Below are positions 8 through 19,095 of a stretch of DNA of 35,466 nt, one piece after another. The first letter of the stretch is position 1, and every line of letters begins with the position of its first letter. This DNA is from Actinomycetes bacterium (GTDB taxonomy: Bacteria; Actinomycetota; Acidimicrobiia; Acidimicrobiales; Palsa-688). Where the stretch lies: assembly GCA_021846485.1 (NCBI GenBank), contig JAJZWW010000002.1, forward strand, positions 1 to 35,466. The letters are read 5' to 3'. The position numbers were made by a program, and so were the translations under genes. Under the pieces are notes generated by a model that did not search any database, had not been told where the DNA came from, and was given only the letters and a program-made list of their open reading frames with translations.

Positions 8-1885
8 TCATGCCAGCGGACGTTGCAGCCGCTTGCTGCGCTCGTAGTCGGCGCGGGCTCGCGCGGTGCTGTCCAGCGCGGAGACCTCGGCGACGGGTAC
101 CTCCCACCAGGCGCCGCTGCCAGGCGCCGGAGCCAGGGGGTCGGTCTCGACGTGGACGACCACGGTCTGGCGCTCCTCACGAGCCTGCTGCAGAGCAGAG
201 CGCAGGTCGTCGATCCCCTCGGCTCGCAGCACGACTGCACCGAGGCTGGCGGCGTTGTCCGCCAGGTCGACCGGCAGCAAGCCACCGTCGAGACGTCCGG
301 TGGTCTGGTCTCGGTACCGGTAGCGGGTGCCGAATCGCTGGGAGCCGGTGGCCTCGGACAAGTTGCCGATGGAGGCGAACCCGTGGTTCTGCACCAGCAC
401 GACGATCAGCTTGACGTGCTCCTGGACGGCGGTCACGAGCTCCTGGGACATCATTAGGTAGGAGCCGTCGCCCACCAGCACGTACACCTCGCGCTGCGGG
501 TCGGCCATCTTCGCCCCGAGCCCGCCGGCGATCTCGTAGCCCATGCAGGAGTAGCCGTACTCGACGTGGTAGCCCTTCGGGTCCCGGGCACGCCAGAGCT
601 TGTGCAGGTCCCCGGGCATGGACCCTGCGGCGCAGACGACGACGTCGGCTGGCCCGCTCAGCTCGTTGACCGCGCCGATGACCTCGGCCTGGGTGGGCAG
701 GGGCTGGTGTCGTCCGTGGTAGGCGCGCTCGACGATCTCGTCCCACGACCGGCGCGCCTCGGCGACCTCGCGGCGGTAGGAGGGGTCGACCGACCAGCCC
801 CGGAGGGCGTCGGTCAGTGACTGGAGGGTGGCGCGGGCGTCGCCGACCACGGGCAGGGCGGCCTGCTTGGCCGAGTCGGAGGCCGTGACGTTGCAGCTGA
901 TGAAGCGCACGTCGGGCTCGGCGAACAAGCTGCGCGAGGCGGTGGTGAAGTCGGTCCAGCGGGTGCCGACGCCGACGACGACGTCGGCCTGCCGGGCGAG
1001 GTCGTTGGCTGCGGTGGTGCCCGTCGCCCCCACCGCACCGACGGACTGGGCGTGGTCGAAGGAGAGCGAGCCCTTGCCCGCTTGGGTTTCGGCCACCGGG
1101 ATGCCGGTGGCCGCCGCGAGCGCCGCCAGCGCCGACGTTGCTTCGGAGTAGATGGCGCCTCCTCCGGCGACGATCAGCGGTCGTCTTGCCGATCGGAGCA
1201 CGTCGATGGCCCGGGCGAGGGCGGCCGGGTCGGCCACCGGGCGGCCGACGTGCCAGACCCGGGGGGCGAAGAGCGCCTCGGGCCAGTCGTAGGCCTCCGC
1301 CTGGACGTCCTGGGGGAGGCAGAGCGTGACCGCACCGGTCTCCGCTGGATCGCTCAGGACACGCATGGCGGCGAGGAGCGCCGCCGGCAGCTGCTCGGGC
1401 CGGCTCACCCGGTCGAAGTAGCGCGAGACGGGGCGGAAGCAGTCGTTGACCGTGACGTCCCCGGCACCGGGTACCTCGAGCTGCTGGAGGACTGGCTCGG
1501 CGGCCCGGGTGGCGAAGGTGTCGGAGGGCAACAACAGCACCGGGAGGCGGTTGATGGTGGCCAGGGCGGCCCCGGTCACCATGTTGGTCGCTCCCGGACC
1601 TATGGAGCTGGTGCACGCGAGGGTCGACAGTCGGTTGCGCATCCGGGCGAAGGCTGCCGCGGCGTGCACCATACCCTGCTCGTTGCGGGCCTGGTGGTAC
1701 GGGAGAGCGCCCGGTCGGAGCAGTTCGGCCTCGAGGAGGGCTTGGCCGAGACCGGCCACGTTGCCGTGACCGAAGATCCCGAAGCAGCCCTCGACGAGCC
1801 GGTGCTCGACGCCGTCACGCTCGCTGCGCTGGGCCGCGAGGAACCGGACCGTGGCCTGGCCGACGGTCAGGCGGAGAGCGGTCAC
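8..1885 (-). CDS. iolD: 3D-(3,5/4)-trihydroxycyclohexane-1,2-dione acylhydrolase (ThDP-dependent, IolD)
   Basis: Minus ORF; likely GTG start at 1885 (VTALRLTVGQATVRFLAAQRSERDG) overlapping the iolB stop by 4 nt; contains GIFGHGNVAGLGQAL, ARNEQGMVHAAAAFA, GDGSYLMMSQELVTAVQE typical of IolD; neighbours iolB/iolC. Confidence 0.95.
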   Translation of the reverse strand: MTALRLTVGQATVRFLAAQRSERDGVEHRLVEGCFGIFGHGNVAGLGQALLEAELLRPGALPYHQARNEQGMVHAAAAFARMRNRLSTLACTSSIGPGATNMVTGAALATINRLPVLLLPSDTFATRAAEPVLQQLEVPGAGDVTVNDCFRPVSRYFDRVSRPEQLPAALLAAMRVLSDPAETGAVTLCLPQDVQAEAYDWPEALFAPRVWHVGRPVADPAALARAIDVLRSARRPLIVAGGGAIYSEATSALAALAAATGIPVAETQAGKGSLSFDHAQSVGAVGATGTTAANDLARQADVVVGVGTRWTDFTTASRSLFAEPDVRFISCNVTASDSAKQAALPVVGDARATLQSLTDALRGWSVDPSYRREVAEARRSWDEIVERAYHGRHQPLPTQAEVIGAVNELSGPADVVVCAAGSMPGDLHKLWRARDPKGYHVEYGYSCMGYEIAGGLGAKMADPQREVYVLVGDGSYLMMSQELVTAVQEHVKLIVVLVQNHGFASIGNLSEATGSQRFGTRYRYRDQTTGRLDGGLLPVDLADNAASLGAVVLRAEGIDDLRSALQQAREERQTVVVHVETDPLAPAPGSGAWWEVPVAEVSALDSTARARADYERSKRLQRPLA

Positions 1886-2763
1886 CGGTTGGTGTCCGGG
1901 TCGTCCCGGTGCAGCGGCAGCCTCGAGTCGACGGGGGTTGCTCCCCAGGTGCCGCGGATCCAGGCGTGGGCCGGGTCGTGGCACACCCTCCAGGCGCGTT
2001 CACCGGGACCGGCCATCACGTTCAGGTAGTAAAGGTCGTAGCCGGCGGCGGCCATGGACGGGCCGTGCCAGCCGTGGGGCACGACCACGAGATCCCGGTC
2101 GCGGACTTCGGCGAGGAGGTCAATGGGCCGCTCGGGGGTGCCGTAGACCCGCTGGTAGGCGAGCCCGGGCCCACCCGGGCCGGCTGCCACCTCGAAGTAG
2201 TAGATCTCCTCGAGCACGGTCTCCCCGGGCCTCTCTTCGTCGTGCTTGTGGGGCGGGTAGGACGAGAAGTTGCCGGCAGGGGTGATGACCTCGCAGACGA
2301 GGAGGCGCTCGCAGTCGAGCGTGCCGGGCAGGCAGATGTTGTGCACCTCGCGGGAGCACGATCCGGCTCCCCGAAGCTCCACCTCCACCGCCGGCGCGGC
2401 CACGTAGCGGAACGGGCGGCCGACCGACGCCCGGGCTCCTGCGAGGGCGAACCGACCGCCGGCGGGGCTCGTGAGCTCGATGGTCGACCGGGGAGGGGCG
2501 TAGGCCGCGTCGCAAGCGCCGGCGAAGACACCCGAGCGGCCGACCAGCTCGGCCCGGTCTTTGCCGCAGACGACCGTCGCTCCACCGCGGAGGGGCAGCA
2601 CCAGCACCTCGTCGGGGCCGGTGTCGACCGCGAGCGTCCCGCCGGGATCGAGGCGCGCAACCCGAAGCGAGGAGTAGGACCAACCGGCTTCCTCGGGGCT
2701 CAGGTCCAGCTCGAACGGGCCGCGCGCCAGGGTGCCGGCCGGATGGTGGAGTCGCCCGCTCAC
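1882..2763 (-). CDS. iolB: 5-deoxy-glucuronate isomerase (IolB)
   Basis: C-terminal part of the 1882..3561 ORF from GTG at 2763; motifs CEVITPAGNFSSYPPHKHD, EEIYYFEV, VVVPHGWHGPSMAAAGYDLYYLNVMAGP are characteristic of IolB. Confidence 0.95.
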   Translation of the reverse strand: MSGRLHHPAGTLARGPFELDLSPEEAGWSYSSLRVARLDPGGTLAVDTGPDEVLVLPLRGGATVVCGKDRAELVGRSGVFAGACDAAYAPPRSTIELTSPAGGRFALAGARASVGRPFRYVAAPAVEVELRGAGSCSREVHNICLPGTLDCERLLVCEVITPAGNFSSYPPHKHDEERPGETVLEEIYYFEVAAGPGGPGLAYQRVYGTPERPIDLLAEVRDRDLVVVPHGWHGPSMAAAGYDLYYLNVMAGPGERAWRVCHDPAHAWIRGTWGATPVDSRLPLHRDDPDTNR

Positions 2764-3662
2764 TGGAGCTCGACCTCCGCCGAGGGCGGGTGGACGAGGT
2801 CGGCGAGCGCGCCGACGCCCACATCCTCGCTGCCGTCCGGGGGGTACAGGAGGGCCCGGCCGATGACCATGCCGCGGACGCCGGGGAGGCGCAGCGCCTT
2901 CTCCCAACGCGAGTGGGTGTCGGCGGGCGCAGTCGCAGGGTCGCCCCCGAGGAGGAGGGTCGGAAGCGTCGTCGCCGCCGTCACCGCCTCCATGTCCTCG
3001 ACGACCGGCAGCTTGAGCCAGGTGCGCGCGCTGGTCGCTCCGAGCCCCGCAGCGATGGCCACCGACCTCACGACCGCCTCGGTGCTGAGCACGTTGCGGA
3101 CTCGTCCGCCTTCGACGCGGGACATGAACGGCTCGATCATGGCGACGAGACCACGCCCGGCGAGCTCGGTCACAGCCCGGCCGCAGGCCTCGAGGGTGTC
3201 GAGCGACCCCCGGTCGGTGAGGTCGATCCGGCAGAGCATCTTGCCTCCGTCGAAGCCCATGGCGGCGATCGTCTCGGCGTTCGCCGCGGTGAAGCGGTCG
3301 TCCAGCTCGAACGAGGCGCCGTGCAGGCCGCCGCGGTTCATGCTGACGAAGACGACCTTGTCGTCGAGCGCTCCGAGCAGCAGCAGGTCCTCGAGGATGT
3401 CGGGAGTGCCGAGGACGCCGTCGACCCCGGGGCACCCCAGGCAGAGCGCGAGGCGGCGGAGCAGCTCGCCGCGGTCGGCCATCGCCGAGGTGTCGGCGCC
3501 GACGCCGAGCGCTCCTCTTGCCGGGTGGTCGGCGGCGAGGACCAGCAGCCGTCCGTCGCACCCGAGCAGCGGGCGCCGGGTCCGCCGGCCAGCCGCCTCG
3601 ACAACGAGCTCGGGGTGGCGCGCCCGCGCCTCGCGCAGGTCGCGGAGGTCAAACCGTTGCAC
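2760..3662 (-). CDS. Cgl0158-family (beta/alpha)8-barrel aldolase-like protein, candidate 2-deoxy-5-keto-gluconate-6-phosphate aldolase
   Basis: Minus ORF from probable GTG at 3662 (VQRFDLRDLREARARHPELV); LVLAADHPARGALGVG, MNRGGLHGASFELDDR, LKLPVVEDMEAV; sits between iolC and iolB with overlapping ends. Confidence 0.8.
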   Translation of the reverse strand: MQRFDLRDLREARARHPELVVEAAGRRTRRPLLGCDGRLLVLAADHPARGALGVGADTSAMADRGELLRRLALCLGCPGVDGVLGTPDILEDLLLLGALDDKVVFVSMNRGGLHGASFELDDRFTAANAETIAAMGFDGGKMLCRIDLTDRGSLDTLEACGRAVTELAGRGLVAMIEPFMSRVEGGRVRNVLSTEAVVRSVAIAAGLGATSARTWLKLPVVEDMEAVTAATTLPTLLLGGDPATAPADTHSRWEKALRLPGVRGMVIGRALLYPPDGSEDVGVGALADLVHPPSAEVELQ

Positions 3663-4641
3663 GGTGCGTGCCTCCCATGATCGCCTCCTCGACCTCTGCG
3701 GTCGTGGGCATCGCCGTAGAGCACTCGACGCGGGAGGCGACCAGGGCTCCGGCGGCGTTCGCGAACCGCATGACCCGCTCGAGGGGCCACCCAGCGAGCA
3801 GGCCGTGGCACAGCGCCCCGCCGAAGCCGTCTCCGGCACCCAGCCCGTTGACGACCTCCACCTCGAACGGCGGGACGTCGACGACCTCGTCCTCGGTGAC
3901 CGCCAGGACCCCCCCCGGGCCACGCTTGATGACCGCCAGGTGCACGCCCCGCTCCAGCAGGGCGCGCGCCGCCCGGAGCCCGTCGTGCTCGCCGGTAGCG
4001 ACGAATGCCTCCTCCAGGTTGCCGACGGCGGAGTCCACCCACTCCAGGGCGGCGCGCGCCTGCCGGGTGGCGTCATCGGGCGAGGACCAGAACGTGGGCC
4101 GGTAGTCGAGGTCGAAGATGGTGAGCGGGGAGCGCTCCCGGACCCGCCAGGCGTGCAGCTGGGCCGAACGGCTCGGCTCCTGGCTGAGCCCGCTGAGGGT
4201 GGTCCACAACACCCGGGCAGATCGGATGGCCGCGTCGTCGAGCTCCTCCGCCCGGATCTCGGTGTCCGGCGCCTTGGGCCAACGGTAGAACCACAGCGGG
4301 AACGAGTCGGGAGGGCGCATCTCGCAAAAGGTGATCGGCGTCGGCAGATCCGGAACCGGCGTGACGAAACGGTCGTCGACGCCCAGCTCGCGCAGTGCCC
4401 GGTGGATGAACCGTCCGAACGGGTCGGCACCGGTGCGGCTGATGACGCCGCTGCGCCGGCCGTGGCGGGCGGCGGCTACGGCCACATTTGCGGCCGTGCC
4501 ACCGAGGAACCGGCCGAAGGTGGTCACGTCCTCGAGGGCGACGTCCGGTTCGAGCGGGTACAGGTCCACCCCCATGCGCCCCATGGTGAGGACGTCGAAG
4601 GTCTCTGTGCGCTCGTTGGGGTGGGCAAGGTCGTCGGTCAT
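3649..4641 (-). CDS. iolC: 5-dehydro-2-deoxygluconokinase (PfkB family, IolC)
   Basis: 330 aa; MGRMGVDLYPLEPDVALEDVTTFGRFLGGTAANVAVAAARHG and NGLGAGDGFGGALCHGLLAG (PfkB signature). Confidence 0.95.
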   Translation of the reverse strand: MTDDLAHPNERTETFDVLTMGRMGVDLYPLEPDVALEDVTTFGRFLGGTAANVAVAAARHGRRSGVISRTGADPFGRFIHRALRELGVDDRFVTPVPDLPTPITFCEMRPPDSFPLWFYRWPKAPDTEIRAEELDDAAIRSARVLWTTLSGLSQEPSRSAQLHAWRVRERSPLTIFDLDYRPTFWSSPDDATRQARAALEWVDSAVGNLEEAFVATGEHDGLRAARALLERGVHLAVIKRGPGGVLAVTEDEVVDVPPFEVEVVNGLGAGDGFGGALCHGLLAGWPLERVMRFANAAGALVASRVECSTAMPTTAEVEEAIMGGTHRATV

Positions 4642-4788: not shown

Positions 4789-5565
4789 GTGGCGGCACGA
4801 CCGGTCCCCACCACCGCGAGGGATCGTGTCGACGGCGGCCCGATCGACCGTTCGAGCCCCGTGCCGTTGTACTTCCAGATCGCCGAGAACCTGCGCGCCG
4901 CCGTGGCAGATGGCCGGCTGCTCCCCGGTGACCGCCTGGACAACGAGCTCGAGCTCTGCGGTCGGCTGGGAGTGAGCCGGCCGACGGTGCGCCAGGCGAT
5001 CCAGACTCTCGTACAAGAAGGGCTGGTCGTCCGTCGCCGGGGCATGGGCTCGGTGGTGGCTGCCCGCCCGATCCAGCGCCCGCTCGCCCTCACCAGCCTG
5101 TACGACGACTTGGTGACTGCTGGTCGCCGGCCGTCGACGACGGTCCTCGCGATCGACCAGCTCGCGGCGGACGAAGTCACCGCGGCGGCCCTCGGACTCG
5201 AGCCGGGATCGTCGGTCATCCGCGTCGATCGGCTCCGTTCGGCGGGAGGTCGCCCGCTCGCCCTCATGCACAACGAGCTGGACGCCAGCTGGGTCCAGGA
5301 CTTGGACCTCGAGGCGGCGCTCTCCGACCAGGGCCTCTACGGTCTGCTTCGCCACCGTGGAGCGGTGTTCCACTCCGCCGAGCAGGTCATCGGAGCCCGC
5401 CGGGCCGACCCCCGGGAAGCCCGCCTGCTCGGGGTGTCGCGGACCACCACGCTGCTGACGATGGAGCGCATGGCCTACGACCACGAGGGTCGGACCATCG
5501 AACGGGGGCGCCATGCCTACCTCGCCGACCGGTACTCGTTTCGTGTCACCCTCGGCCTGCACTGA
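4789..5565 (+). CDS. GntR family transcriptional regulator (HutC subfamily, UTRA domain)
   Basis: PVPLYFQIAENLRAAVADGRLLPGDRLDNELELCGRLGVSRPTVRQAIQTLVQEGLVVRRRGMGSVV winged helix, followed by a UTRA-like ligand domain; divergent from iolC. Confidence 0.93.
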   Translation: MAARPVPTTARDRVDGGPIDRSSPVPLYFQIAENLRAAVADGRLLPGDRLDNELELCGRLGVSRPTVRQAIQTLVQEGLVVRRRGMGSVVAARPIQRPLALTSLYDDLVTAGRRPSTTVLAIDQLAADEVTAAALGLEPGSSVIRVDRLRSAGGRPLALMHNELDASWVQDLDLEAALSDQGLYGLLRHRGAVFHSAEQVIGARRADPREARLLGVSRTTTLLTMERMAYDHEGRTIERGRHAYLADRYSFRVTLGLH

Positions 5566-5595: not shown

Positions 5596-7590
5596 TCACC
5601 GGGCGAGGCCGACGGAGCGCAGGTGGGCTAGGCTGGCTCGGGCATCGTCGAGCGGGACCGACTCCCCCGTCGGGCTGGCGTCCTGCTCGACAGTGCCCCA
5701 TCCCTCGTAGCCGATGCGCTCCAGGGTCGCTGCAACCTGTTCGAAGTCGACCGCGCCCCGGCCGAGCGGACAGAAGATGCCCTGCCGGTAGGCGTCCCAG
5801 AACGACAGCTCCTCCTTCTCGATCCGGTCGAGAACGGCGGGGTCGACGTCCTTGAAGTGGACGTGGGCGATCCGGTCGGCATGGTCGGTGAGGATCCCGA
5901 CCGGGTCGACTCCGGCGTAGAGCGAGTGGCCGGTGTCGACGCACAGCGACACCCGGGCCGGATCGGTGTCCCCGAGCAGGCGCTCGATCTCGTCGGCGAA
6001 CTCGACGTCGGTGCCTGCGTGGGGGTGGAAGGCGGTAACCATCCCTGTCCCGGAGGCCACCTCGGCGACTCGCCGGGTCGTGTCGATGAGCCGCCTCCAG
6101 GCGGTCTCGTCGAGTCGCTGGGCTGCCGCGGGCCGGCCGGCCGTCTTGGCCCGGGCCGGCGTCCAACCGGCGATGACCACGAGGCGCCCGGCCCCGAGAG
6201 GCTCCAGCAGGGCGCAGATGTCCCTAGCCTTCTGGACGACTCCGTCGGCGGTCTCGGGGTCGTGGAGCACCTCCATCACCACGCCGGCGGAGAGTGCCAG
6301 GTGGCGGCGTGCCAGCTCCGAACGCAGTGTCGAGGGATCGGTGGGGAAGAAGCCGAGCGGGCCCAGCTCGACTCCCTCGTAGCCCGCCTCGGCGACCTCG
6401 TCGAGCACCCGGCTCCAACTCGGGTAGGACGGGTCCGACGGCTTCTCGATGCCCCATGAGGTCGGCGCGTTGCCGATCCGGATCCTCGGCGAGGAGGCCC
6501 CGGTGCCGGGCGCAGCGGCGTAGGTGGCGCCGGCGAGGGCCGCCGACGCGCTGGCGATCTCGTCGACGGCGACCGTCCGGCCCTCGGCGAGGGAACGCTG
6601 GGCCGTGAGTGCCAGCACGAGGGCGCAGCGCGCGTCGCGACCTCCCGGAGCGACCGCGCCGGTCTCACCCCGACAGGCGCGCAGGAACGCCCGGAGCTCC
6701 GCTGGGTAGGCGCTCTCGTACCGCTCCGGGAAGAACCGGTACAACGGGGCGGTCACCGCTCCGCGCCCGTCGGCGAGGACGTTGACCGACGGCAGGGGAT
6801 TGGTCGACCAAGCTGTCGCCTCGGTGCCGTGGACCTCGACCCGCTGGTCGTAGCCGTAGGTGGACAGCCGGCAGCACTCGATCACGCCGATGGCCCCCGA
6901 GGCGAAGCGCAGGGTGATGGTGGCCACGTCCACGTCGCCCGCCTCGGCAGCCAGCGGATCGACCAGGCTCGAACCGCTGGCCGACACCGCCACGACCTCC
7001 TCCCCGCTGACGAAGCGGGCAGTGTCGAAGTCGTGGATGGCCATGTCGGAGAACAGCCCGCCCGGTCCACGGGGGTAGCCGACCGGGGGCGGATCCGGGT
7101 CGCGGGAGGTGATCCGCAGCTGGAGGAGGTGGCCGACACCTCCCGACGCCACCGTCTCGGCGAGCTCCCCGAAGGCCGGGTCGAACCTCCGGTTGAAGCC
7201 GACGTGCAGGACCACGCCGGCCCGCTCGGCGGCACCGATGGCGGCATCCACCCCCTGAAGGTCGGGGGCGAGCGGCTTCTCGCAGAAGACGTGGTGCCCG
7301 GCGGCTGCCGCAGCCACGACCTGTTCGGCGTGAGCCGACGAGGCCGAGCAGATCATCACCGCGTCGAGGTCCTCGCGTCGGACCAGGTCCTGCCAGCGCG
7401 GCCACGCGCCGGTGCCGAGCACCCCGGCGAGGCGTTCGGCCGCCGCCAGGTCCGGGTCGGCGACCCCGACGACGAGGGCGTCCGGGTCGGCCCGGAGGTT
7501 GCCGGCGTGGAGGGCGCCGATGCGGCCCGCGCCAAGGAGAGCAATGCGGACGGGGGCCCCTTGCTCTCCGGAGCCTCTTGATGTTGTCAT
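5596..7590 (-). CDS. Fused IolG-like inositol 2-dehydrogenase (Gfo/Idh/MocA, N-terminal) and IolE-like 2-keto-myo-inositol dehydratase (TIM barrel, C-terminal)
   Basis: One ORF; ATG at 7590 with GGGAGG upstream. N-half VRIALLGAGRIGALHAGNL ... CEKPLAPDL ... GFNRRFDPAFGEL ... GGLFSDMAIHDFDTARF; after about aa 350, PRIRIGNAPTSWGIEKPSDPSYPSWSRVLDEVAEAGYEGVELGPLGF ... AFHPHAGTDVE ... CVDTGHSLYAGVDP ... HVHFKDVDP typical of IolE. Confidence 0.92.
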   Translation of the reverse strand: MTTSRGSGEQGAPVRIALLGAGRIGALHAGNLRADPDALVVGVADPDLAAAERLAGVLGTGAWPRWQDLVRREDLDAVMICSASSAHAEQVVAAAAAGHHVFCEKPLAPDLQGVDAAIGAAERAGVVLHVGFNRRFDPAFGELAETVASGGVGHLLQLRITSRDPDPPPVGYPRGPGGLFSDMAIHDFDTARFVSGEEVVAVSASGSSLVDPLAAEAGDVDVATITLRFASGAIGVIECCRLSTYGYDQRVEVHGTEATAWSTNPLPSVNVLADGRGAVTAPLYRFFPERYESAYPAELRAFLRACRGETGAVAPGGRDARCALVLALTAQRSLAEGRTVAVDEIASASAALAGATYAAAPGTGASSPRIRIGNAPTSWGIEKPSDPSYPSWSRVLDEVAEAGYEGVELGPLGFFPTDPSTLRSELARRHLALSAGVVMEVLHDPETADGVVQKARDICALLEPLGAGRLVVIAGWTPARAKTAGRPAAAQRLDETAWRRLIDTTRRVAEVASGTGMVTAFHPHAGTDVEFADEIERLLGDTDPARVSLCVDTGHSLYAGVDPVGILTDHADRIAHVHFKDVDPAVLDRIEKEELSFWDAYRQGIFCPLGRGAVDFEQVAATLERIGYEGWGTVEQDASPTGESVPLDDARASLAHLRSVGLAR

Positions 7591-7707: not shown

Positions 7708-7817
7708 GAGTCCGACCGTAAGTGAGTCAGGCTGACATAATGAGCTTACCTGAAGTCGCATGTGCCTGAATAGGGGGGGATGGTGAGGGGAAGGCACGAG
7801 GGTGCCCCGAGGCGGTC

Positions 7818-8822
7818 ATGAAGGTCGTCGTGGTCGGTGCCGGCCGCATGGGCCGACGTCGGGCGGAGTTGTTGGCACGGCACGGCGCCGTCGAGTCCGT
7901 GGTGGTGGCCAGCCGCAACGAGCCCAGTGCCCGGGCAGTGGCCGACAGCGTCGGCGGTCGCTGCGTACCCCTCGGCGCGGCCCTGGAGGTCCGCCCCGAC
8001 GCGGTCGTGGTGAGCCTGGCCACTGCGAGCCACGCCGAGCACCTGCTCGCGGCGCTTCGCCTCGGCGTGCCCATCCTCACCGAGAAGCCACTCGCCGTCG
8101 ACCTGGCGGGCACCCGTGAGGTGGTCGCCGCCGCTCGAAGCGCCGGGGTGGAGGTGCAGGTCGGCTTCCAGCGTCGGTTCGACCCGGCCTACGTCGAGGC
8201 GGCTCGCCTGGTGGCTACGGGCGCCCTCGGGACTCTCTACCACGTGCACATGACCTCCCACGACCGCGACGTCACGCCCGAGGAGTACATCCCCGGCTCC
8301 GGCGGGATCTTCCGCGACCTCCACGTGCACGACTTCGACGCCGCCCGGTTCCTCACCGGGCGGGAGATCGTCGAGGTCGATGCGCGGGCTTCGGTTCGCG
8401 CCCACCCCCGCTTCGCCCGCCACGACGACTTCGACGTCGCGACGGTCCTCGCAACGATGGACGACGGTCTGGTGGTGACGGTCACCGGGGCGCGCCACGA
8501 CCCTCTGGGCTACGACTTCCGGGTCGAGATGTTCGGCACCGAGGACTCCGTGGCGGCGGGCGCATCCCCCCGGACGCCGCTGCGTTCGCTCGAAGCGGGG
8601 GGACCTGGCGTGCCGGAGCGGCCCTACGAGGGTTTCCTGGACCGCTTTGCCGCAGCCTTCGAGGCGGAGACCAGCGCCTTCGTGGACCTGGTCCTCGGCC
8701 GGGGGACCAACCCCTGCCCGCCCGAGGAAGCGGCTCGGGCGATGGAGGCGGCGGTCGCCTGCGAGCGGTCGGTCGCCGAGCACCGGCCGGTCGGCCTCGC
8801 CGAGGTGCAGGTGCCCGCGTGA
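7818..8822 (+). CDS. Gfo/Idh/MocA family oxidoreductase (inositol 2-dehydrogenase-like)
   Basis: MKVVVVGAGRMGRRRAELL; LTEKPLAVDL; GFQRRFDPAYVEA; GGIFRDLHVHDFDAARFLTG. Confidence 0.92.
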   Translation: MKVVVVGAGRMGRRRAELLARHGAVESVVVASRNEPSARAVADSVGGRCVPLGAALEVRPDAVVVSLATASHAEHLLAALRLGVPILTEKPLAVDLAGTREVVAAARSAGVEVQVGFQRRFDPAYVEAARLVATGALGTLYHVHMTSHDRDVTPEEYIPGSGGIFRDLHVHDFDAARFLTGREIVEVDARASVRAHPRFARHDDFDVATVLATMDDGLVVTVTGARHDPLGYDFRVEMFGTEDSVAAGASPRTPLRSLEAGGPGVPERPYEGFLDRFAAAFEAETSAFVDLVLGRGTNPCPPEEAARAMEAAVACERSVAEHRPVGLAEVQVPA

Positions 8823-9997
8823 GCCGGCGACTCGGGATCGGCCTGCTCGGGGTCGGCTGGATGGGGTCGCTGCACACCCGCTCGCTCCGGCGCCTCCCCG
8901 ACCACTACCCCGATCTGGCCACCGGCTGCGACTTCGTCGTCGCCGCGGACCCCAGCCCGGGGGGGCGACGTCGCGCCGTCGAGGAGCTCGGCTACGAGCG
9001 AGCCGAACAGGACTGGCGGGCGGTCGTGGAGGACCCCCGAGTGGACCTGGTCTCGGTCACTGCCCCCAACGCCTTCCACCGGGAGATGTCCCTGGCGGTC
9101 ATCCACGCGGGCAAGGCCCTGTGGGTGGAGAAGCCGGTCGGCCGGGGAGTGGCGGAGACCGCGGAGGTCGCCGGGGCTGCGGCGCGCGCCGCCACGATCT
9201 CGGCCGTCGGCTTCAACTACCGCAACGTCCCGCTCGTGGAGCACGCAGTCGCGCTGATCGCCCGCGGGACCATCGGCCGGCTGACCGGGTTCCGCGGGTG
9301 GTTCCTCGGTGACTACGCGAGCAACCCGTGGGGGCCGCTCAACTGGCGTTTCTCGCGCGCCGGGGCAGGTTCGGGTGCCCTGGGCGACCTGATGTGCCAC
9401 GTCGTCGACCTGGCCGCCACCCTGGTCGGGCCGCTCCAGGAGGTGGTGGCGTCGACCGATGTGGTGGTCCCTCGCCGCCCACTGCCCACGGCGGGAGACG
9501 AGCACTTCAGCACGCTCGACTCGCCGGTCGAGCCGCCCGGCGACGACGTGCCCACCGGCCCCGTCGAGAACGAGGACAGCGCCCGCGCGCTGGTGCGCTT
9601 CACTGGCGGCGCCTCCGGGTTCCTGGAGGTCGGCCGGGCAGTGGTCGGGCCCCACTGCTCTCTCGGCTTCGAGGTCTACGGTAGCGCCGGGTCGCTGCGC
9701 TGGGACTTCGAGCGGATGAACGAGATGGGGCTCTACCGGGCCGACACGCCCGGCGACGCCGGCTACCGGCGGGTGCTCGCCCGACCCGGTCACGGGGAGT
9801 ACGGGCGCTTCCAGCCGGGACCGGCGATCGCCATGGGCTTCGACGACCTGAAGGTCGTGGAGGCGGCGCGGCTGGTGCGGGCCGTCGTGTCCGCCGAGAA
9901 GTGCACCCCGGGGTTGCCCGAGGCGCTGGCCGCCGCCCGGGCACTCGACGCCATGGAGCGGTCGGCGCTGAGCCGGGCATGGGAGCCGGTGGGATGA
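8819..9997 (+). CDS. Gfo/Idh/MocA family oxidoreductase
   Basis: RLGIGLLGVGWMGSLHTRSL; VEKPVGRG; GFNYRN; GALGDLMCHVVDLA; GTG start overlaps the preceding stop. Confidence 0.92.
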   Translation: MSRRLGIGLLGVGWMGSLHTRSLRRLPDHYPDLATGCDFVVAADPSPGGRRRAVEELGYERAEQDWRAVVEDPRVDLVSVTAPNAFHREMSLAVIHAGKALWVEKPVGRGVAETAEVAGAAARAATISAVGFNYRNVPLVEHAVALIARGTIGRLTGFRGWFLGDYASNPWGPLNWRFSRAGAGSGALGDLMCHVVDLAATLVGPLQEVVASTDVVVPRRPLPTAGDEHFSTLDSPVEPPGDDVPTGPVENEDSARALVRFTGGASGFLEVGRAVVGPHCSLGFEVYGSAGSLRWDFERMNEMGLYRADTPGDAGYRRVLARPGHGEYGRFQPGPAIAMGFDDLKVVEAARLVRAVVSAEKCTPGLPEALAAARALDAMERSALSRAWEPVG

Positions 9998-10360: not shown

Positions 10361-11494
10361 ATGTCCTACGAAGTGAAAGAAGTCGACCCGCGCGAGCGGG
10401 AGCTGTCCCGCCGCCGGTTCCTCAAGCGAGCCGGGGCCGCCGCCCTGGCCGTCCCGGCACTCAGCACCGTGCTCGAGGCCTGCGGGACCTCGTCGCCGGG
10501 GACCGCCAACGCCTCCAGCTTCGGGCCCAACGGCAAGGACCCGTTCGGCAAGCATCCCAACTGGACCTTCGCCCTGATCAACCACGTGACGACCAACCCG
10601 TTCTTCGTGCCGACCCGCTACGGCGCCCAGGACGCCTGCGCCCTCCTCGGGGTCAGCTACACCTGGACCGGTTCGGCGAACTCGATCGTGCCGCACATGG
10701 TCTCGGCCATGAACACCGCCATCGCCGACAAGGTCCACGGCATCGGGGTGCCGGTGATCGACCCCACTGCCTTCATCAAGCCCACCGACGACGCCCTCAC
10801 CGAGGGCATCCCGGTCGTGGCCTACAACGCCAACCCGCCGGCCAACTCCAAGAACAACCAGATGGCCTACATCGGCCAGAACCTGTTCCAGGCCGGAGTG
10901 CTGGCCGGCCACAAGATCCTCAGCTACGTCTCCAAGGGCGACCTGGTCGGCGGGATGATCGCCACCCCGGGCACCGCCAACATCCAGCCCCGCATGGACG
11001 GGGCGAAGTCCGTGCTGGAGCCGGCCGGGGTCAACCTGGTCGAGGTGGCCACCGGCGCCCAGCTCTCCCAGGAGTTCTCGACGGTGCCCAGCTGGTACCT
11101 CGGGCACAAGGACGTCAAGTTCCTCTACGCGGTCGACGACGGCTCCGGCGAGGCGGTCGCCGAGACGATCACCAAGTACAACCTGAAGGGCAAGGTGCAC
11201 GGGTCGGGGTGGGACGTCGCCGTCCCGGAGCTGAAGGCCGTGAAGAACGGATCGCTGGACTTCTCCATCGACCAGCAGGCGTACCTCCAGGGCTTCATCC
11301 CGATCGTGCAGCTCTTCTTCTACCAGCTGTCGGGAGGCTTGATGCGGCCGTGCAACACCGACACCGGCCTCAACTTCATCACCTCCACCAACGTCGACAG
11401 CTACCTCAACGTCCCCTCCCGGTACGAGGGCAGCACCACCGCCGAGAAGGTCCTGTCGGTTCCCTCGAAGATCCCGGAGGTAGCGCTGCAATGA
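10361..11494 (+). CDS. Sugar/cyclitol ABC transporter substrate-binding protein (periplasmic-binding-protein-like), Tat signal and lipobox
   Basis: N-terminus LSRRRFLKRAGAAALAVPALSTVLEACG (twin Arg, lipobox-like Cys); class-B periplasmic binding protein features; followed by permease and ATPase with 4-nt overlaps. Confidence 0.9.
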   Translation: MSYEVKEVDPRERELSRRRFLKRAGAAALAVPALSTVLEACGTSSPGTANASSFGPNGKDPFGKHPNWTFALINHVTTNPFFVPTRYGAQDACALLGVSYTWTGSANSIVPHMVSAMNTAIADKVHGIGVPVIDPTAFIKPTDDALTEGIPVVAYNANPPANSKNNQMAYIGQNLFQAGVLAGHKILSYVSKGDLVGGMIATPGTANIQPRMDGAKSVLEPAGVNLVEVATGAQLSQEFSTVPSWYLGHKDVKFLYAVDDGSGEAVAETITKYNLKGKVHGSGWDVAVPELKAVKNGSLDFSIDQQAYLQGFIPIVQLFFYQLSGGLMRPCNTDTGLNFITSTNVDSYLNVPSRYEGSTTAEKVLSVPSKIPEVALQ

Positions 11495-12528
11495 GCCAGG
11501 CCATCCTTCCCCATGCCGGCGGAGACACCTACGCGACCCCCTCCGCCCGTACGGCTGGGAGGAGTGGCATTGGCTGGCGCGTGCTGGTCGAGCGGCGCGA
11601 GGCGGCGATCCTGGTCGTCGCCATCGCGCTCTTCGTCTACTTCACCGTCGCCTCGGCCAACTTCCTCACCGTCGCCGACCTGCAGAACCTCTCGCAGTTC
11701 GTGGGGCCGGTCGCGGTGATCGGGGCCGGCGAGGTGATGCTGCTCGTGTGCGCCGAGGTCGACCTGTCCGCCGGGACCGTGTTCGTGTTCATGCCCTTCG
11801 TCGTGTACTACGCGAACCAGGACCTGGGTCTGCCGATGCTGGCCTCGATCGTCGTCGCAGTGGTGGTCGCCGGCGTGGTGGGGGCGCTGAACGGGATCAT
11901 CACCACCAGCCTCAACGTGCCGTCGTTCATCACGACCCTCGGCATGCTGTTCGCCCTGGACGGGATCATGCTGGTCACCTCCAACGCCGCGCAGCTCACC
12001 ATGCCGACCGTCGGCACGCTCTCCAACGTCTTCGGCGGCTACGGGTGGTCGGAGATCATCTGGTCGGTGGTGTTGGTGGCCATCATGTACGTCGTGCTCA
12101 ACCGGACCCGCTTCGGCATGCACACTGTCGCCGCCGGGGGCAACCTGGTCGGCGCCTCCGAGGCCGGCGTGCCGGTGAACCGGGTGAAGATCTGGTGCTT
12201 CGTGATCTGCTCGGCGCTGTCGGGGCTCATTGGGATCGTCGACGCCACCCGCATCACCGTGCTCGACCCGGGCAACCCCGGGACCCAGGAGATGTTCTAC
12301 GCCATCGCGGCCGCGGTCATCGGCGGAACCGCCCTGACCGGAGGCAGCGGCACGGTGATCGGCGCGTTCGTCGGCGCCGTGGTCCTCGGCGTGCTGTTCG
12401 TCGGGCTCACCATCGTCGGCATCAGCGCCAACGCCTTCGTGCTGATCCTCGGAGCGGCCATCCTCGGGGCGATGATCGCCAACGTCCAGCTCGCCAGGTT
12501 CGCCGAGAAGAGGAAGCTGCCGTCGTGA
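11491..12528 (+). CDS. Ribose/xylose/inositol-type ABC transporter permease (RbsC-like)
   Basis: ATG at 11491; VMLLVCAEVDLSAGTVF, LNGIITTSLNVPSFITTLGML, AAAVIGGTALTGGSGTVIGAFVGAVVLGVL. Confidence 0.93.
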   Translation: MSQAILPHAGGDTYATPSARTAGRSGIGWRVLVERREAAILVVAIALFVYFTVASANFLTVADLQNLSQFVGPVAVIGAGEVMLLVCAEVDLSAGTVFVFMPFVVYYANQDLGLPMLASIVVAVVVAGVVGALNGIITTSLNVPSFITTLGMLFALDGIMLVTSNAAQLTMPTVGTLSNVFGGYGWSEIIWSVVLVAIMYVVLNRTRFGMHTVAAGGNLVGASEAGVPVNRVKIWCFVICSALSGLIGIVDATRITVLDPGNPGTQEMFYAIAAAVIGGTALTGGSGTVIGAFVGAVVLGVLFVGLTIVGISANAFVLILGAAILGAMIANVQLARFAEKRKLPS

Positions 12529-13352
12529 CCACCACCGACCTCCACGCCGCCCGCCACGACCGCTCCGTCGCGGGCGAGGAGATCCTCCGGACCGAGGGCA
12601 TCACCAAGCACTTCGGGCCGGTCGTCGCGCTGCGGGGAGTGGACATGCACCTCCGCCGCGGGGAGGTGCTCGGCCTGGTCGGGGACAACGGGGCGGGCAA
12701 GACCACCTTCGTGAAGATCCTCTGCGGCTACCAGCGGCCCGACGCCGGCAAGATGTTCGTCGAGGGCCAGGAGGTGCACTTCCGCTCGGTCAGCGACTCC
12801 CGGGCCGTGGGAATCGAGACGGTCTACCAGGATCTCGCCCTGGTCCCGCAGCTCCCGGTCTACAAGAACCTGTTCCTCAAGCGGGAGATCGTCGCCGGTG
12901 GCCGGCTCGGGTTCCTGTCCGACAACAAGATGCGCAGGCTCGCCCGTCAGTACCTCGGCGACATCAAGGTGAACGTCCCCTCGGTCGACGCCCCCGTCGA
13001 GCGACTCTCCGGCGGTCAGCGCCAGGCGATCGCCGTCGCCCGGGCGACCCGCTCCGACGTCAAGATCCTGCTGCTCGACGAACCGCTGTCGGCGATGGGC
13101 GCCAAGGAGTCGGCACTGATCATCGACTTGGTCCGCGACCTGTCGAAGAACCGCGGCGTGTCGATCATCGTGATCGACCACAACTACGCCCACATTTTCG
13201 AGCTGTGCGACCGGGTCAACGTCATCCACCAGGGCGTCGTGAGCTTCGACAAGCCGGTGGGGGACACCTCCTTGGAGGAGCTCACCAGCTACATGGTCTC
13301 GGAGTACCGCCAGGAGATCATGTCCGGGCGCGCGGCGCGCCAGGACGGCTGA
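12525..13352 (+). CDS. Sugar ABC transporter ATP-binding protein (single ABC domain)
   Basis: GTG at 12525; Walker [10 protein letters not shown], signature LSGGQRQA, Walker [13 protein letters not shown]. Confidence 0.93.
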
Positions 13353-14754
13353 GGCCGGCTCCCGGTCGGTCAGCGGTCAGGTCCCGGACGGCGGCGTAGC
13401 GCTCCCGCACCGCGGGGTCGGGCTCGGCCTCGCGCACGGTGGCCGGCGACGCCTCCCAGGTTGGCGGCCGGTCCCCGCCGGCGCGCGCCCACGCCGCCTG
13501 GAGGGCGGCGCCGTCGGCCACGTGCTCCCCCTCGGTGGGCACCACCACGGGTAGCCCGAGGATCGCGGGGGCGAGGGTGACCACCGCCGGGTTGCGCGCG
13601 CCGCCCCCGACGAGCAGCGCCCGGCGCGCCTCGACGCCGCTGCGGCGCAGCTGGTCCAGCCCGTCGGCGAGGCCGCACAAGAGCCCCTCGACGGCGGCCC
13701 GGGCGACGTTGGCGGCCACCAGGTTGGTGTCGGTGAGTCCGTGGAGGGCGCCGGTGGCGTCGGGCCGGTTGGGGGTGCGCTCCCCGACCAGGTAGGGGAC
13801 GAGCACCAGTCCCTCCGCCCCCGGCGGGGAGGAGAGTGCGAGCTCGGCGAGGCGGGAGGCGGACACCCCGAGCAGGCGGCAGGCCGCCTGAAGCACCCCA
13901 GCCCCGTTGAGGGTGCACACCAGCGGCAGGAACGCGCCCGTCGCGTCGGCGAAGCCGGCTACCGCCCCGGAGGGGTCGGCGGTCGGGGAGGCGTTCACCG
14001 CGGTCACCACGCCCGAGGTGCCGATGGAGACGACCACGTCACCGGCGGCGGCACCGAGCCCGAGCGCGGATGCGGCGTTGTCGCCGGCGCCGGGGGCGAC
14101 GAGAGCCCCGCCCGGGCTCTCCCCGACGACCTCTGCGGGGGCGGCCACCCGGGGCAGCCCCGGCGCCCGGCCCATGGCCAACCCGAGCAGGTCGGGGCGC
14201 CACGCCCCCGTCACCGGTGACCAGTACCCCGTGCCGCTGGCGTCGCTGCGGTCAGTGGTGAGCGCCGCCGCCGCCCCTTGTAGCCGCCAGGTCAGCCAGT
14301 CGTGGGGCAGGCACACCGCTGCCGTCGCCGCGGCGTTCGCTGGCTCGTGCTCCGCCAGCCACCGCAGCTTGGTGACCGTGAACGACGCCACCGGCACCGA
14401 CCCGACCGCCTCCGCCCACGCCGCCGCACCCCCTGGTAGCTCGGCCACCAGGTCGGCGGCCGCGGCAGCGGAGCGGGTGTCGTGCCACAGCAGCGCGTCG
14501 CGCACCACCTCGCCGGAGCCGTCGAGGCACACCATCCCGTGCTGCTGGCCGGCGACGGCGATGGCTGCCACGTCATCGAGACCGCCGGCATCGGACGCGG
14601 CCTCCTGGAGCGCCGCCCACCACGCCTCCGGTGGGACCTCCGAACCAGGGGGGTGGGCGGACCGCCCGGTGCGCACCGCCTCGCCGGTGTCGGCGTCGCG
14701 TACGACCACCTTGCAAGCGGTGGTGGACGAGTCGACCCCGGCGACCAGCGCCAT
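13318..14754 (-). CDS. xylB: Xylulokinase (FGGY family)
   Basis: [51 protein letters not shown]; directly downstream of xylA; 35-bp 3' overlap with the convergent ABC ATPase. Confidence 0.92.
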
Positions 14755-14760
14755 CGGGCC

Positions 14761-15969
14761 CTACCGGGCACCCATCAGGTGCTCGAGGGCCAGCTGGTTG
14801 AGGCGCACGAACCCGTAGCCCCGCTCGCCCAGCTTGTCGGCGTCGAAGTCCTCCCAGGCCCCCCGGTCGGCGCGCAGGCCCTCGGCCGTCTCGCCGGGGT
14901 CGAGGGTCGGGGTGGTGAGGGTGGTGACCCCCGACACCTCCAGCGCCTCGGCGACCTCCGGGTCGGCGCGGTAGCTCGCCGCCCGCTGGGCGAGCAGCAG
15001 GTAGGTGCGCATGTTGGCCGCCGCCGAGTCCCACACGCCGCCGTCGTCCTCGGTGCGTGACGGCTTGTAGTCGAAGTGCCGCGGTCCGTCGTAGGCCGGG
15101 CCGCCACCGGGGGCGCCGTGCTCGAGCAGGTCCACCAGGAAGAAGGCGTTGACCAGGTCCCCGTGGCCGAAGACCAGGTCCTGGTCGAACTTGATCGACC
15201 GCTGCCCGTTGAGGTCGAGGTGGAACAGCTTCCCGGCCCAAAGCGCCTGGGCGACGCCGTGGGCGTAGTTGAGCCCGGCCATCTGCTCGTGCCCCACCTC
15301 GGGGTTGACCCCCACCATGTCGGCGTGCTCGAGGCCGGCGATGAACGCCAGGGCGTGGCCGACGGTTGGCAGGAGGATGTCGCCCCGGGGCTCGTTGGGC
15401 TTGGGCTCGAGGGCGAAGCGGATCGGCCAGCCCCGGTCGCGCACCCACCCTGCGAGGGTGTCGATCGCCTCCCGGTAGCGGTCCAGGGCAGCCCGGACGT
15501 CCTTGGCCCCCTCGAACTCCGAGCCTTCCCGCCCGCCCCAGAACACGTAGGTCGTCGCGCCCAGCTCGGCCGCCAGCTCCAGGTTGCGCATCACCTTGCG
15601 CACGGCGTAGCGCCGCACGGCCCGGTCGTTGCTCGTGAAACCGCCGTCTTTGAACACCGGGTGGGTGAACAGGTTGGTGGTCATCATCGGGACCACCATC
15701 CCCGTCTCCTCCAGCGCCTCCCGGAAACGGGCGATCGCCGCGTCCCGTGCTGCCGGGGTCGACCCCGGCGGGACCAGGTCGTCGTCGTGGAAGGTGATCC
15801 CCCACGCGCCGAGCTCGGCCAGCCGGTGCACCGCCCGGACCGGATCGAGAGGTGCGCGGGTTGCGTCCCCGAAAGTGTCACGGGCCTGCCAGCTCACGGT
15901 CCACAGACCGAAGCTGAACCGGTCGGACGGGCCGGGGTGGGGAGGGGAAGGGGCGGCCACGATCATCAC
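14761..15969 (-). CDS. xylA: Xylose isomerase
   Basis: [86 protein letters not shown]. Confidence 0.97.
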
Positions 15970-16043
15970 CTCCGATGCTCGGGGTACGAGGCGAGACCCA
16001 CGGTAGCGCCGTCCGGCGCCAGCTGCCCCCTGGGGATCTCAGC

Positions 16044-17525
16044 TCACGCCGAAGCGACGTGGTCGGCGGTGGCTTCTGCGCCGTCGAGCCGGAGGCGTCC
16101 GAGCAACTCGGCCAGGCGGTCCCGCACCACCGTGTCGGCCGCCAGCTCCGGGTCGAACACCGAGGGCATCCCGAGCAGTGAGTCGACGACCTCTGACGTC
16201 GTACGGGTGCTGGTGACCCGGGCGGCGATCTCCTCGGCGAGGGGGTCGTCGACGGTCAGCGGCCGGCCCGAGTCGTCGCGCCGGTCGGCGACGAAGCGCA
16301 TCCACGCGGCCAGGCAGAGGAGTGCTGGCAGCGGCTCCGCGCCCTGGCGGCGGCGGTCGGCGATGGTGCCGAGGAGCCGCTGGGGAAGCTTCTGGCTGCC
16401 GTCCATGGCGACCTGGGCCGTGCGGTGGGGGAGAGCCCGGTTGGCGAAGCGCTCCATCAGCTGCTCCTGGTACGCGCCGAGATCGAGGCCCGGAGGGGGA
16501 GGCAGGAGGGTCGGGACCACGTCGTCAGCCATCAGCGCGCGCACGACCGCGGCGACGGCCGGTCGGCGGACGCACTCCGACACGAGCTGCCAGCCGGCCA
16601 GCTGCCCGAGGTAGGCGATCGTCGAGTGGCTGGCGTTGAGCAGGCGCACCTTGGCCCGCTCCCACGGCCGGGCGTCGTCGGTCAGGACCACCCCGGCGTG
16701 CTCCCACGCCGGTCGGGGTCCGGCGAAGTCGTCCTCGACCACCCAGTGGCAGAAGCGCTCGGCTACGACGGTGCCCTCGTCGGTGAGGCCCAGGCGCGCC
16801 GCGACCTCGGCCCGGTCGGCTGCGGTCGCCGCCGGAACTATCCGGTCGACCATCGTCGAGGGGAAGCGCACCTGGTCGTCCAGCCAGGCCAGCAGGTCGT
16901 CGCGCTCAGCGGACCGCTCGGCGAAGTCCCGCACCAGGCGCCCGACCGTGGCGCCGTTGTCGGCCAGGTTGTCGCAGCACACGACCGTCACCGGTCCCGC
17001 ACCGGCCCGCCGGCGGGCCCGGAGGCCGGCGGTCAGCTGCCCGACGGTCGTGCGCGGCGGCCGCCCCGCCAGGTCGGCTGCCAGCTCGGGATCGTCGGAG
17101 CGGAGCCGGCCGGTGCTGATGTCGTGGCGGTAGCCCTTCTCGGTGACCGTGAGGGTGACGACGTTCACCTCTGGGGTGGCGATGCGCTCGACCACGGTTG
17201 CCGGGTCGGCGCGGCCGTCGAGGACCTCACGGAGGGCCCCGACGACCCTCACGTCGCAGCCGCCGTCGCCCCGCTCCAGCAGGGTGTAGAGGCCGTCTTG
17301 CGGGGTGAGCCGGCGGCTCACCGTCCCGCTGCGCTGGGTGATCCCGCAGATCCCCCAGTCGCCACCGGCGACGGCGACGGCGTCCTCGGTCAGCACCGCC
17401 TGGTGGGCCCGGTGGAACGCTCCCAGCCCAAGGTGGACGATGCCCACCCCGAGGCGCGCGGGATCGACTCGGGGACGGGCGGCGGCAGGCAGGGTGGGCA
17501 GCGCCGCCAGCGACAGGCGGGTCAC
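16044..17525 (-). CDS. Mannitol dehydrogenase family protein (mannitol 2-dehydrogenase / fructuronate or tagaturonate reductase-like)
   Basis: VGIVHLGLGAFHRAHQAVLTED; VVCCDNLADNG; CHWVVEDDF; KVRLLNASHSTIAYLGQLAG. Confidence 0.9.
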   Translation of the reverse strand: MTRLSLAALPTLPAAARPRVDPARLGVGIVHLGLGAFHRAHQAVLTEDAVAVAGGDWGICGITQRSGTVSRRLTPQDGLYTLLERGDGGCDVRVVGALREVLDGRADPATVVERIATPEVNVVTLTVTEKGYRHDISTGRLRSDDPELAADLAGRPPRTTVGQLTAGLRARRRAGAGPVTVVCCDNLADNGATVGRLVRDFAERSAERDDLLAWLDDQVRFPSTMVDRIVPAATAADRAEVAARLGLTDEGTVVAERFCHWVVEDDFAGPRPAWEHAGVVLTDDARPWERAKVRLLNASHSTIAYLGQLAGWQLVSECVRRPAVAAVVRALMADDVVPTLLPPPPGLDLGAYQEQLMERFANRALPHRTAQVAMDGSQKLPQRLLGTIADRRRQGAEPLPALLCLAAWMRFVADRRDDSGRPLTVDDPLAEEIAARVTSTRTTSEVVDSLLGMPSVFDPELAADTVVRDRLAELLGRLRLDGAEATADHVASA

Positions 17526-17544
17526 GTCCTGCGGGCCCGGGTCC

Positions 17545-19095
17545 TCACAGCACGGCCCCGAGCTGCCAGGGGGTGAGCTCCTCGTCGCCGAATCCGAGCT
17601 CCTCGCTGCGGGTCCGCTCCCCCGACGCCACCGTCAGGATGCGCCCGAACAGCTCGGCGCCGAGCTCGTCCACCGGCACGCCGTCGAGCACCCGCCCGCA
17701 GTCGACGTCCATGTCGTCGGGCATGCGGGCGTAGAGCTCCGAGGTGGTCGCCAGCTTCAGGCTCGGCACCGGCTTGCAGCCGAACACCGATCCCCGCCCG
17801 GTGGTGAAGCACACCACCGTGGCGCCACCGGCGACCATCCCGGTCACCGACACCGGGTCGTACCCGGGGGTGTCCATGAACACCAGGCCGCGGGAGCGGA
17901 CCGGCTCTGCGTAGCCGACGACGTCGGTGAGCGGGCTGCGGCCAGCCTTGGCGACCGCCCCGAGCGACTTCTCCTCGATGGTGGTGATCCCGCCTGCCCG
18001 GTTGCCCGGGGAGGGGTTGGCGTCGAGGGTGGTCCCGTTGGCGCTGGCGTACGCGTCCCACCAGGCGAGGCGTTGCTCGAGACGGCGGGCGACCTCCGGC
18101 GACACCGCTCGTGCCGTGAGGAGGTGCTCGGCGCCGTGGACCTCGGGGGTCTCGCCGAGCACGGCGGTGCCGCCGGCGGCGACCAGCAGGTCGCTGGCCA
18201 CTCCGAGCACCGGATTGGCGGTCACCCCCGACCAGGCGTCGGAGCCGCCGCACTCGAGGCCCAGCACGAGCTCGGCGGCCGGCACCGGTCGGCGCTCGGT
18301 GACCGGCAGGCGATCGAGCAGCTCCCGCACCTGGTCCACTCCCCACTCCACCGCGCGCCGGGTCCCGCCCTCGCCTTGGATGGTCGCAGCGCGCACCGGG
18401 GTGCCCACCGGCAGCCCGATCTCCTCCACCAGGTCGTCGACCTGGTTGACCTCGCAGCCGAGGCCGAGGACGACCACCCCGGCCACGTTGGGGTGGCGGG
18501 CGTAGCCGGCGAGCGTCCGGCGTAGCACGGCCAGGCCCTCTCCGGCGGCGGCTGTGCCGCACCCCCCGCGATGGGTGAGGGCGAGCACCCCGTCCACCCG
18601 GCTCGGGTCCAACGCCCCGGGGCTCTCGAAGGCAGCGGTGATCCGTCGGACGGCGGTCGCCGAGCAGTTGACCGAGCTCAGCACGACCACGTAGTTGCGC
18701 GTGCCCACCCGACCGTCGGGGCGGACGATGCCGGCGAAGCCGGCTGCGTCTGCCGACCCGGCCGGCACCGGGGGAGCAGCTGGGGACCGGGCCGGCCGGC
18801 TGCCCGCCGGCAGCGTAGTGAGCGACGCCAGGTTGTGGGTGTGGACGTGCTCGCCGGCCCGGACCGCGGCGGTCGTCACGCCGATGGGCTGGCCGTACTT
18901 GCAGACCACCGCTCCGGCGGGAAGCTCCACCAAGGCGACCTTGTGGCCGGCGGGGACCTCCTCGGCGACGGTGACTACCGGCCCGCCCGCCGGCCCGGCC
19001 GGTGTGCCGGCGGGCAGCGGCTCGCGGGCGATGCCGACCGGGTCGTCGGGGTGGAGCCGGACGAGCGCTGCGTGCTCCACGGTCACTTCCCCCAC
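17545..19095 (-). CDS. uxaA: UxaA family hydrolyase, altronate dehydratase-like (N-terminal SAF-like plus C-terminal domains)
   Basis: N-terminus HKVALVELPAGAVVCKYGQPIGV; NYVVVLSSVNCSATAVRRI; ALTHRGGCG; LGLECGGSDAWSGVTANP; GVVCF-like region VVCFTTGRGSVFGCKPVPSLKLATTSELY; 19 nt upstream of the mannitol-dehydrogenase-family gene. Substrate not provable here. Confidence 0.85.
   Translation of the reverse strand: MGEVTVEHAALVRLHPDDPVGIAREPLPAGTPAGPAGGPVVTVAEEVPAGHKVALVELPAGAVVCKYGQPIGVTTAAVRAGEHVHTHNLASLTTLPAGSRPARSPAAPPVPAGSADAAGFAGIVRPDGRVGTRNYVVVLSSVNCSATAVRRITAAFESPGALDPSRVDGVLALTHRGGCGTAAAGEGLAVLRRTLAGYARHPNVAGVVVLGLGCEVNQVDDLVEEIGLPVGTPVRAATIQGEGGTRRAVEWGVDQVRELLDRLPVTERRPVPAAELVLGLECGGSDAWSGVTANPVLGVASDLLVAAGGTAVLGETPEVHGAEHLLTARAVSPEVARRLEQRLAWWDAYASANGTTLDANPSPGNRAGGITTIEEKSLGAVAKAGRSPLTDVVGYAEPVRSRGLVFMDTPGYDPVSVTGMVAGGATVVCFTTGRGSVFGCKPVPSLKLATTSELYARMPDDMDVDCGRVLDGVPVDELGAELFGRILTVASGERTRSEELGFGDEELTPWQLGAVL

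Follow-up and report, generated by a model that had tools for sequence, protein, structure and literature searches.

An IolG-IolE gene fusion in the inositol catabolism locus of a draft actinobacterial genome assembly

The window, by which is meant the whole 35,466-nt stretch of DNA analysed here, is an entire contig of a draft metagenome-type assembly (548 contigs, 84% complete). Its host belongs to a poorly known group of actinobacteria, and in this one bacterium a single gene appears to encode the enzymes for the first two steps of inositol catabolism (Table 1). Genes for iolC, an aldolase, iolB and an iolD-like enzyme lie nearby, as recognized by profiles and by synteny, and they mark the region as an inositol (iol) locus. 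In the congeneric genome G003, the corresponding order is iolG-iolE-iolC-aldolase-iolB-iolD, with all genes in one direction. There iolE runs directly into iolC. The window differs in that the fused gene and iolC are kept apart by a GntR/UTRA regulator encoded on the other strand; the fusion and this rearrangement of the regulator may be linked events.

On the other side of the fused gene, a second IolG-like gene and a levoglucosan-dehydrogenase-like gene overlap by 4 nt and run divergently from the fusion toward a sugar transporter. The same pair is present in G121, a relative from another family; in the second congeneric genome, G001, the corresponding place did not reveal the IolG-like gene. 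In the assembled genome as a whole, IolG has one close and two weak paralogues. The genes between 13318 and 19095 form a wider sugar-catabolism region that adjoins the inositol locus.

Table 1. Features of the inositol locus and its surroundings, in window coordinates.
Feature	Coordinates	Strand	Basis
iolD-like thiamine-diphosphate enzyme, possibly truncated at the contig end	8..1984	-	TPP_enzyme N, M, C
iolB, 5-deoxyglucuronate isomerase	1882..2800 (approximate start inside long ORF 1882-3561)	-	TIGR04378 above cut-off
Cgl0159-like (IolJ-type) aldolase	2760..3660 (approximate start inside long ORF 2760-4430)	-	PF22649; 71% identical to G003 orthologue
iolC, 5-dehydro-2-deoxygluconokinase	3649..4641	-	TIGR04382 above cut-off
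GntR/UTRA regulator, convergent with the fusion, divergent from iolC	4789..5565	+	Pfam
iolG-iolE fusion ORF, 664 aa (ATG at 7590, stop codon 5596-5598)	5596..7590	-	Translation, Pfam, NCBIfam
IolE-type dehydratase TIM barrel, residues 370-664	5599..6483	-	TIGR04379, AP_endonuc_2; 3cny, 9zmu
Linker, 24 residues (346-369), Ala/Gly/Pro/Ser-rich, 354-367 predicted disordered	6484..6555	-	Site of the relatives' 4-nt iolG/iolE overlap
IolG-type inositol dehydrogenase domain, residues 14-345	6556..7551	-	TIGR04380, Pfam; PDB relatives 3ezy, 4hkt, 3euw
Second IolG-like dehydrogenase, in divergent orientation to the fusion	7818..8822	+	TIGR04380, 262 bits
Levoglucosan-dehydrogenase-like Gfo/Idh/MocA enzyme	8819..9997	+	NF052479, 267 bits, far below cut-off 650
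Sugar ABC transporter: binding protein, permease, ATPase	10361..13352	+	Pfam; syntenic in G001
Xylulokinase, xylose isomerase, mannitol-dehydrogenase-family enzyme, galactarate/altronate dehydratase	13318-19095	-	

The initial annotation described one ORF at 5596-7590 that joins an IolG-like dehydrogenase to an IolE-like dehydratase, and translation together with Pfam and NCBIfam searches confirms this; the linker peptide that it quoted is also correct. It left the strand unstated: the open frame sits on the minus strand, and the plus strand is not open across this interval. Both domain types proposed for the product, GFO_IDH_MocA and AP_endonuc_2, are found in the one ORF, with Pfam matches to GFO_IDH_MocA (residues 14-132), GFO_IDH_MocA_C3 (142-260), GFO_IDH_MocA_C (172-342) and AP_endonuc_2 (396-659). 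Upstream the frame stays open to a GTG at 7797; the likely start is nevertheless the ATG at 7590, since a GGAGG lies about 10 nt ahead of it. Chance can be set aside as the source of so long a frame, because the codon-position GC pattern continues unbroken through the whole ORF and the separate genes of relatives align over both of its halves at 70-75% amino-acid identity.

The N-terminal half resembles known IolG proteins (TIGR04380; PDB 3euw and 4hkt; Bacillus subtilis 3nt2) in fold, Rossmann motif, catalytic triad and a full-length profile match, with 3ezy, 4hkt and 3euw as the nearest solved structures. Residues 14-340 match positions 2-329 of the 330 in TIGR04380 (iolG, NCBIfam) at 339-341 bits, below the curated equivalog cut-off of 355, and the half is therefore classed as IolG-type rather than as a certified equivalog. 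The catalytic triad of B. subtilis IolG consists of Lys97, Asp172 and His176 (PMC9603128). By alignment these are equated with K105 (in CEKP), D182 and H186 (both in DMAIH) of the fusion, which are invariant with relatives. The GxGxxG cofactor motif is present as GAGRIG (G20-A-G22-R-I-G25). Apart from its score, this half differs from known IolG in having IolE joined at its C-terminus.

The C-terminal half shares with known IolE, the 2-keto-myo-inositol dehydratase (TIGR04379; PDB 3cny and 9zmu), its fold, conserved active-site motifs and a full-length profile match. It differs in having IolG joined at its N-terminus, with its own start codon gone, and in its score: residues 370-658 match positions 2-287 of the 290 in TIGR04379 (iolE, NCBIfam) at 200-202 bits, against a cut-off of 290, so that it is likewise classed as IolE-type and not as a certified equivalog. 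The TIM barrel carries the motifs of solved IolE structures (E-G, HxHxGT, DTGH, HxHxKD and VE), and E408, H522/H524, D552/H555, H576/H578 and E635 are retained in alignment with 3cny and 9zmu. By analogy with the xylose-isomerase-like fold, E408, H522/H524, D552, H576/H578 and E635 are putative metal or active-site residues. In neither half, then, are catalytic residues missing. The sub-cut-off scores are best read, from sequence comparison, as lineage divergence and not as damage, because the separate orthologues of a sister genome also fall below the cut-offs (349 bits for iolG and 197 bits for iolE); the separate iolE of G121 scores 205 bits.

These scores leave some room for a real fusion that acts on another substrate, such as scyllo- or D-chiro-inositol or a 3-keto-glycoside in place of myo-inositol. 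The adjoining levoglucosan-dehydrogenase-like gene and a weak match of the IolE half to the 2-hydroxy-3-keto-glucal hydratase 8ro4 point the same way. However, the profiles of IolG and IolE far outscore all others, and the same locus holds iolB, iolC, the IolJ-like aldolase and the iolD-like gene, which makes a different substrate quite improbable.

An AlphaFold monomer model of the fusion, built with a 32-sequence alignment, has a mean pLDDT of 89.9 and a pTM of 0.58; the two domains are modelled confidently, and pLDDT drops below 50 at residues 354-367. Foldseek matches the model to IolG structures (3ezy, TM 0.94 by target length) and to the IolE structure 3cny (TM 0.82 by target length). 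The fusion is thus predicted to consist of two well-folded domains on a loose, disordered tether, their relative orientation being modelled without confidence.

Changes private to the lineage of the window fall mostly at third codon positions in both halves. Third-position GC is 0.89 in the IolG part, 0.96 in the linker and 0.89 in the IolE part. The private changes number 17/12/67 at codon positions 1/2/3 in the IolG part and 14/11/44 in the IolE part; among codons with a single change, synonymous changes outnumber non-synonymous ones by 52 to 10 and 34 to 10, respectively. This suggests that both halves are under purifying selection and that neither is decaying, a result that is supportive rather than decisive because most of the divergence may predate the fusion.

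Such a pattern also bears on whether the fused ORF might have only one working half, or might yield two ordinary enzymes through internal initiation or proteolytic cleavage. The predicted disorder of the linker would leave it open to cutting, and the other IolG-like gene of the locus could stand in for the IolG half. Against this, catalytic residues and signs of purifying selection are found in both halves, the junction region offers no credible site for internal initiation, and the fusion is the sole IolE homologue in the assembled genome (84% complete). A product with a single active half, or one routinely divided in two, consequently seems very unlikely.

The junction itself is best understood by comparison with relatives. 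The statement that IolG and IolE are usually separate genes holds for every relative examined: in the congeneric genomes G003 (L023) and G001 (L024), iolG and iolE overlap by the 4 nt ATGA, and in G121 (L043) by the 4 nt GTGA. These unfused pairs are orthologous to the fusion and syntenic with it, with 60-75% protein identity. They remain, however, two genes in different frames, with iolE one frame off iolG, whereas the fusion is one gene with a linker about 10 residues longer. Where the relatives read ATG ACC ATC AAG GTC, the fusion reads CCG AGG ATC CGG ATC, and alignment gives a net excess of about 31 nt in the fusion (32 in, 1 out). This number, being 3x10+1, matches the shift needed to unite the iolG and iolE frames. 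The iolE frame near the junction contains no ATG, GTG or TTG, the iolE start codon having been lost. In G121, the product of iolG (L043:200-1513) carries, ahead of its last helix, some 40 inserted residues with a high content of Pro, Ser, Ala and Glu.

An assembly or sequencing artefact, in which two overlapping genes were merged by error or by a chimeric join, was treated as the first rival because the contig belongs to a 548-contig, 84%-complete assembly, and the fusion was seen in no other genome searched. No stop or frameshift was found near nt 6490-6540, however, and no stop occurs in any forward frame over nt 6421-6620. From the sequence, no single indel error could have converted the two genes into the fusion ORF, because the difference is about 31 nt, iolE lacks a start and all three frames are free of stops. 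The extra nucleotides are coding-like, the junction sequence has no counterpart elsewhere in the genome beyond short weak matches, and the genes on either flank stand in the same order as in the sister genomes. A frameshift artefact was accordingly rejected as unlikely on inspection of starts, stops and frame at the junction and on comparison with the sister genomes, and an artefact of any of these kinds is highly improbable.

The locus is therefore best explained, with good though not complete confidence from sequence comparison, by a genuine lineage-specific fusion of overlapping iolG and iolE genes, the protein being most likely bifunctional. Apparently recent, the fusion combines two known enzymes in a new way and does not amount to a new type of system. 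In the ancestral state, iolG and iolE would have overlapped by 4 nt, as in the related genomes. A change at the overlap (net about +31 nt, 3n+1), together with loss of the iolE start, would then have brought both into one frame. The 4-nt overlap probably already couples translation of iolG and iolE in the relatives, and hence the step from overlap to fusion would have been small.

The protein families, the catalytic residues and the operon suggest what each half would do. In the N-terminal half, NAD+ would serve to oxidize myo-inositol (or a close isomer) to 2-keto-myo-inositol; dehydration of this ketone by the C-terminal TIM barrel would then give the trihydroxycyclohexane-dione on which IolD acts. 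The main effect and benefit would probably be fixed 1:1 production of the two activities and the tethering of their sites.

The proposal of a bifunctional enzyme that could channel the ketone is likely in its first part, since both halves look like intact enzymes for consecutive steps. Its second part is not supported: with two domains on a disordered linker and a pTM of 0.58, the model gives no indication of a fixed interface or channel in the monomer. Characterized IolG enzymes are tetramers, and a tetramer of the fusion would therefore bear four IolE domains. It is conceivable, though doubtful, that in such a tethered IolG oligomer a lineage-confined enzyme dehydrates the ketone as soon as inositol oxidation produces it and so pulls the unfavourable oxidation forward, as a natural form of channelling reached by fusion of overlapping genes.

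No new chemistry or pathway is revealed here, and the novelty is modest. The fusion would nevertheless offer a clean natural case in which two overlapping genes for consecutive pathway steps became one. Since the unfused state is preserved in sister genomes, it lends itself readily to testing whether flux rises when a reversible dehydrogenase is tethered to the step that drains its product. The fusion may also be a possible part for inositol-based metabolic engineering.

The survey of this architecture yielded no second case in the genomes and loci covered. No other full-length, stop-free IolG-IolE match was detected among about 1,050 distinct actinobacterial genomes, comprising the family (32 genomes), samples of the order (397), class (395) and phylum (397), and two further families. 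Scoring in the large scans was confined to the top three candidates of each genome, and for class and phylum the matches listed were those with E up to 1e-85. A conserved family of IolG-IolE fusions was rejected on this basis. The best 80 loci listed, drawn from many phyla, include no case in which a single stop-free frame holds both domains. Pseudomonadota and Bacillota were sampled solely through plasmid records and this multi-phylum loci scan. Single-piece tblastn matches on plasmids (Agrobacterium and Defluviimonas) were discarded as fusions, since those records annotate two genes. Viral contigs gave no IolG-IolE fusion match, and a literature search found none named. Further IolG-IolE fusions may exist in protein databases at large.

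The closest precedent comes from the same pathway: an IolC-DUF2090 fusion that is widespread and was shown to be important for growth on myo-inositol (PMC9007349). It likewise places two consecutive inositol-pathway enzymes in one protein, but it covers different steps, and the locus described here has IolC alone with a separate Cgl0159-type aldolase. An arrangement of iolG followed by iolE at short distance recurs among the best 80 loci listed. In L053-L057 (Lachnospiraceae, Veillonellaceae and Pelethocola) and L065 (Halobacillus), the two genes are unfused and occupy the same frame, with about 9-54 nt from stop to start, so that loss of one stop codon could fuse them.
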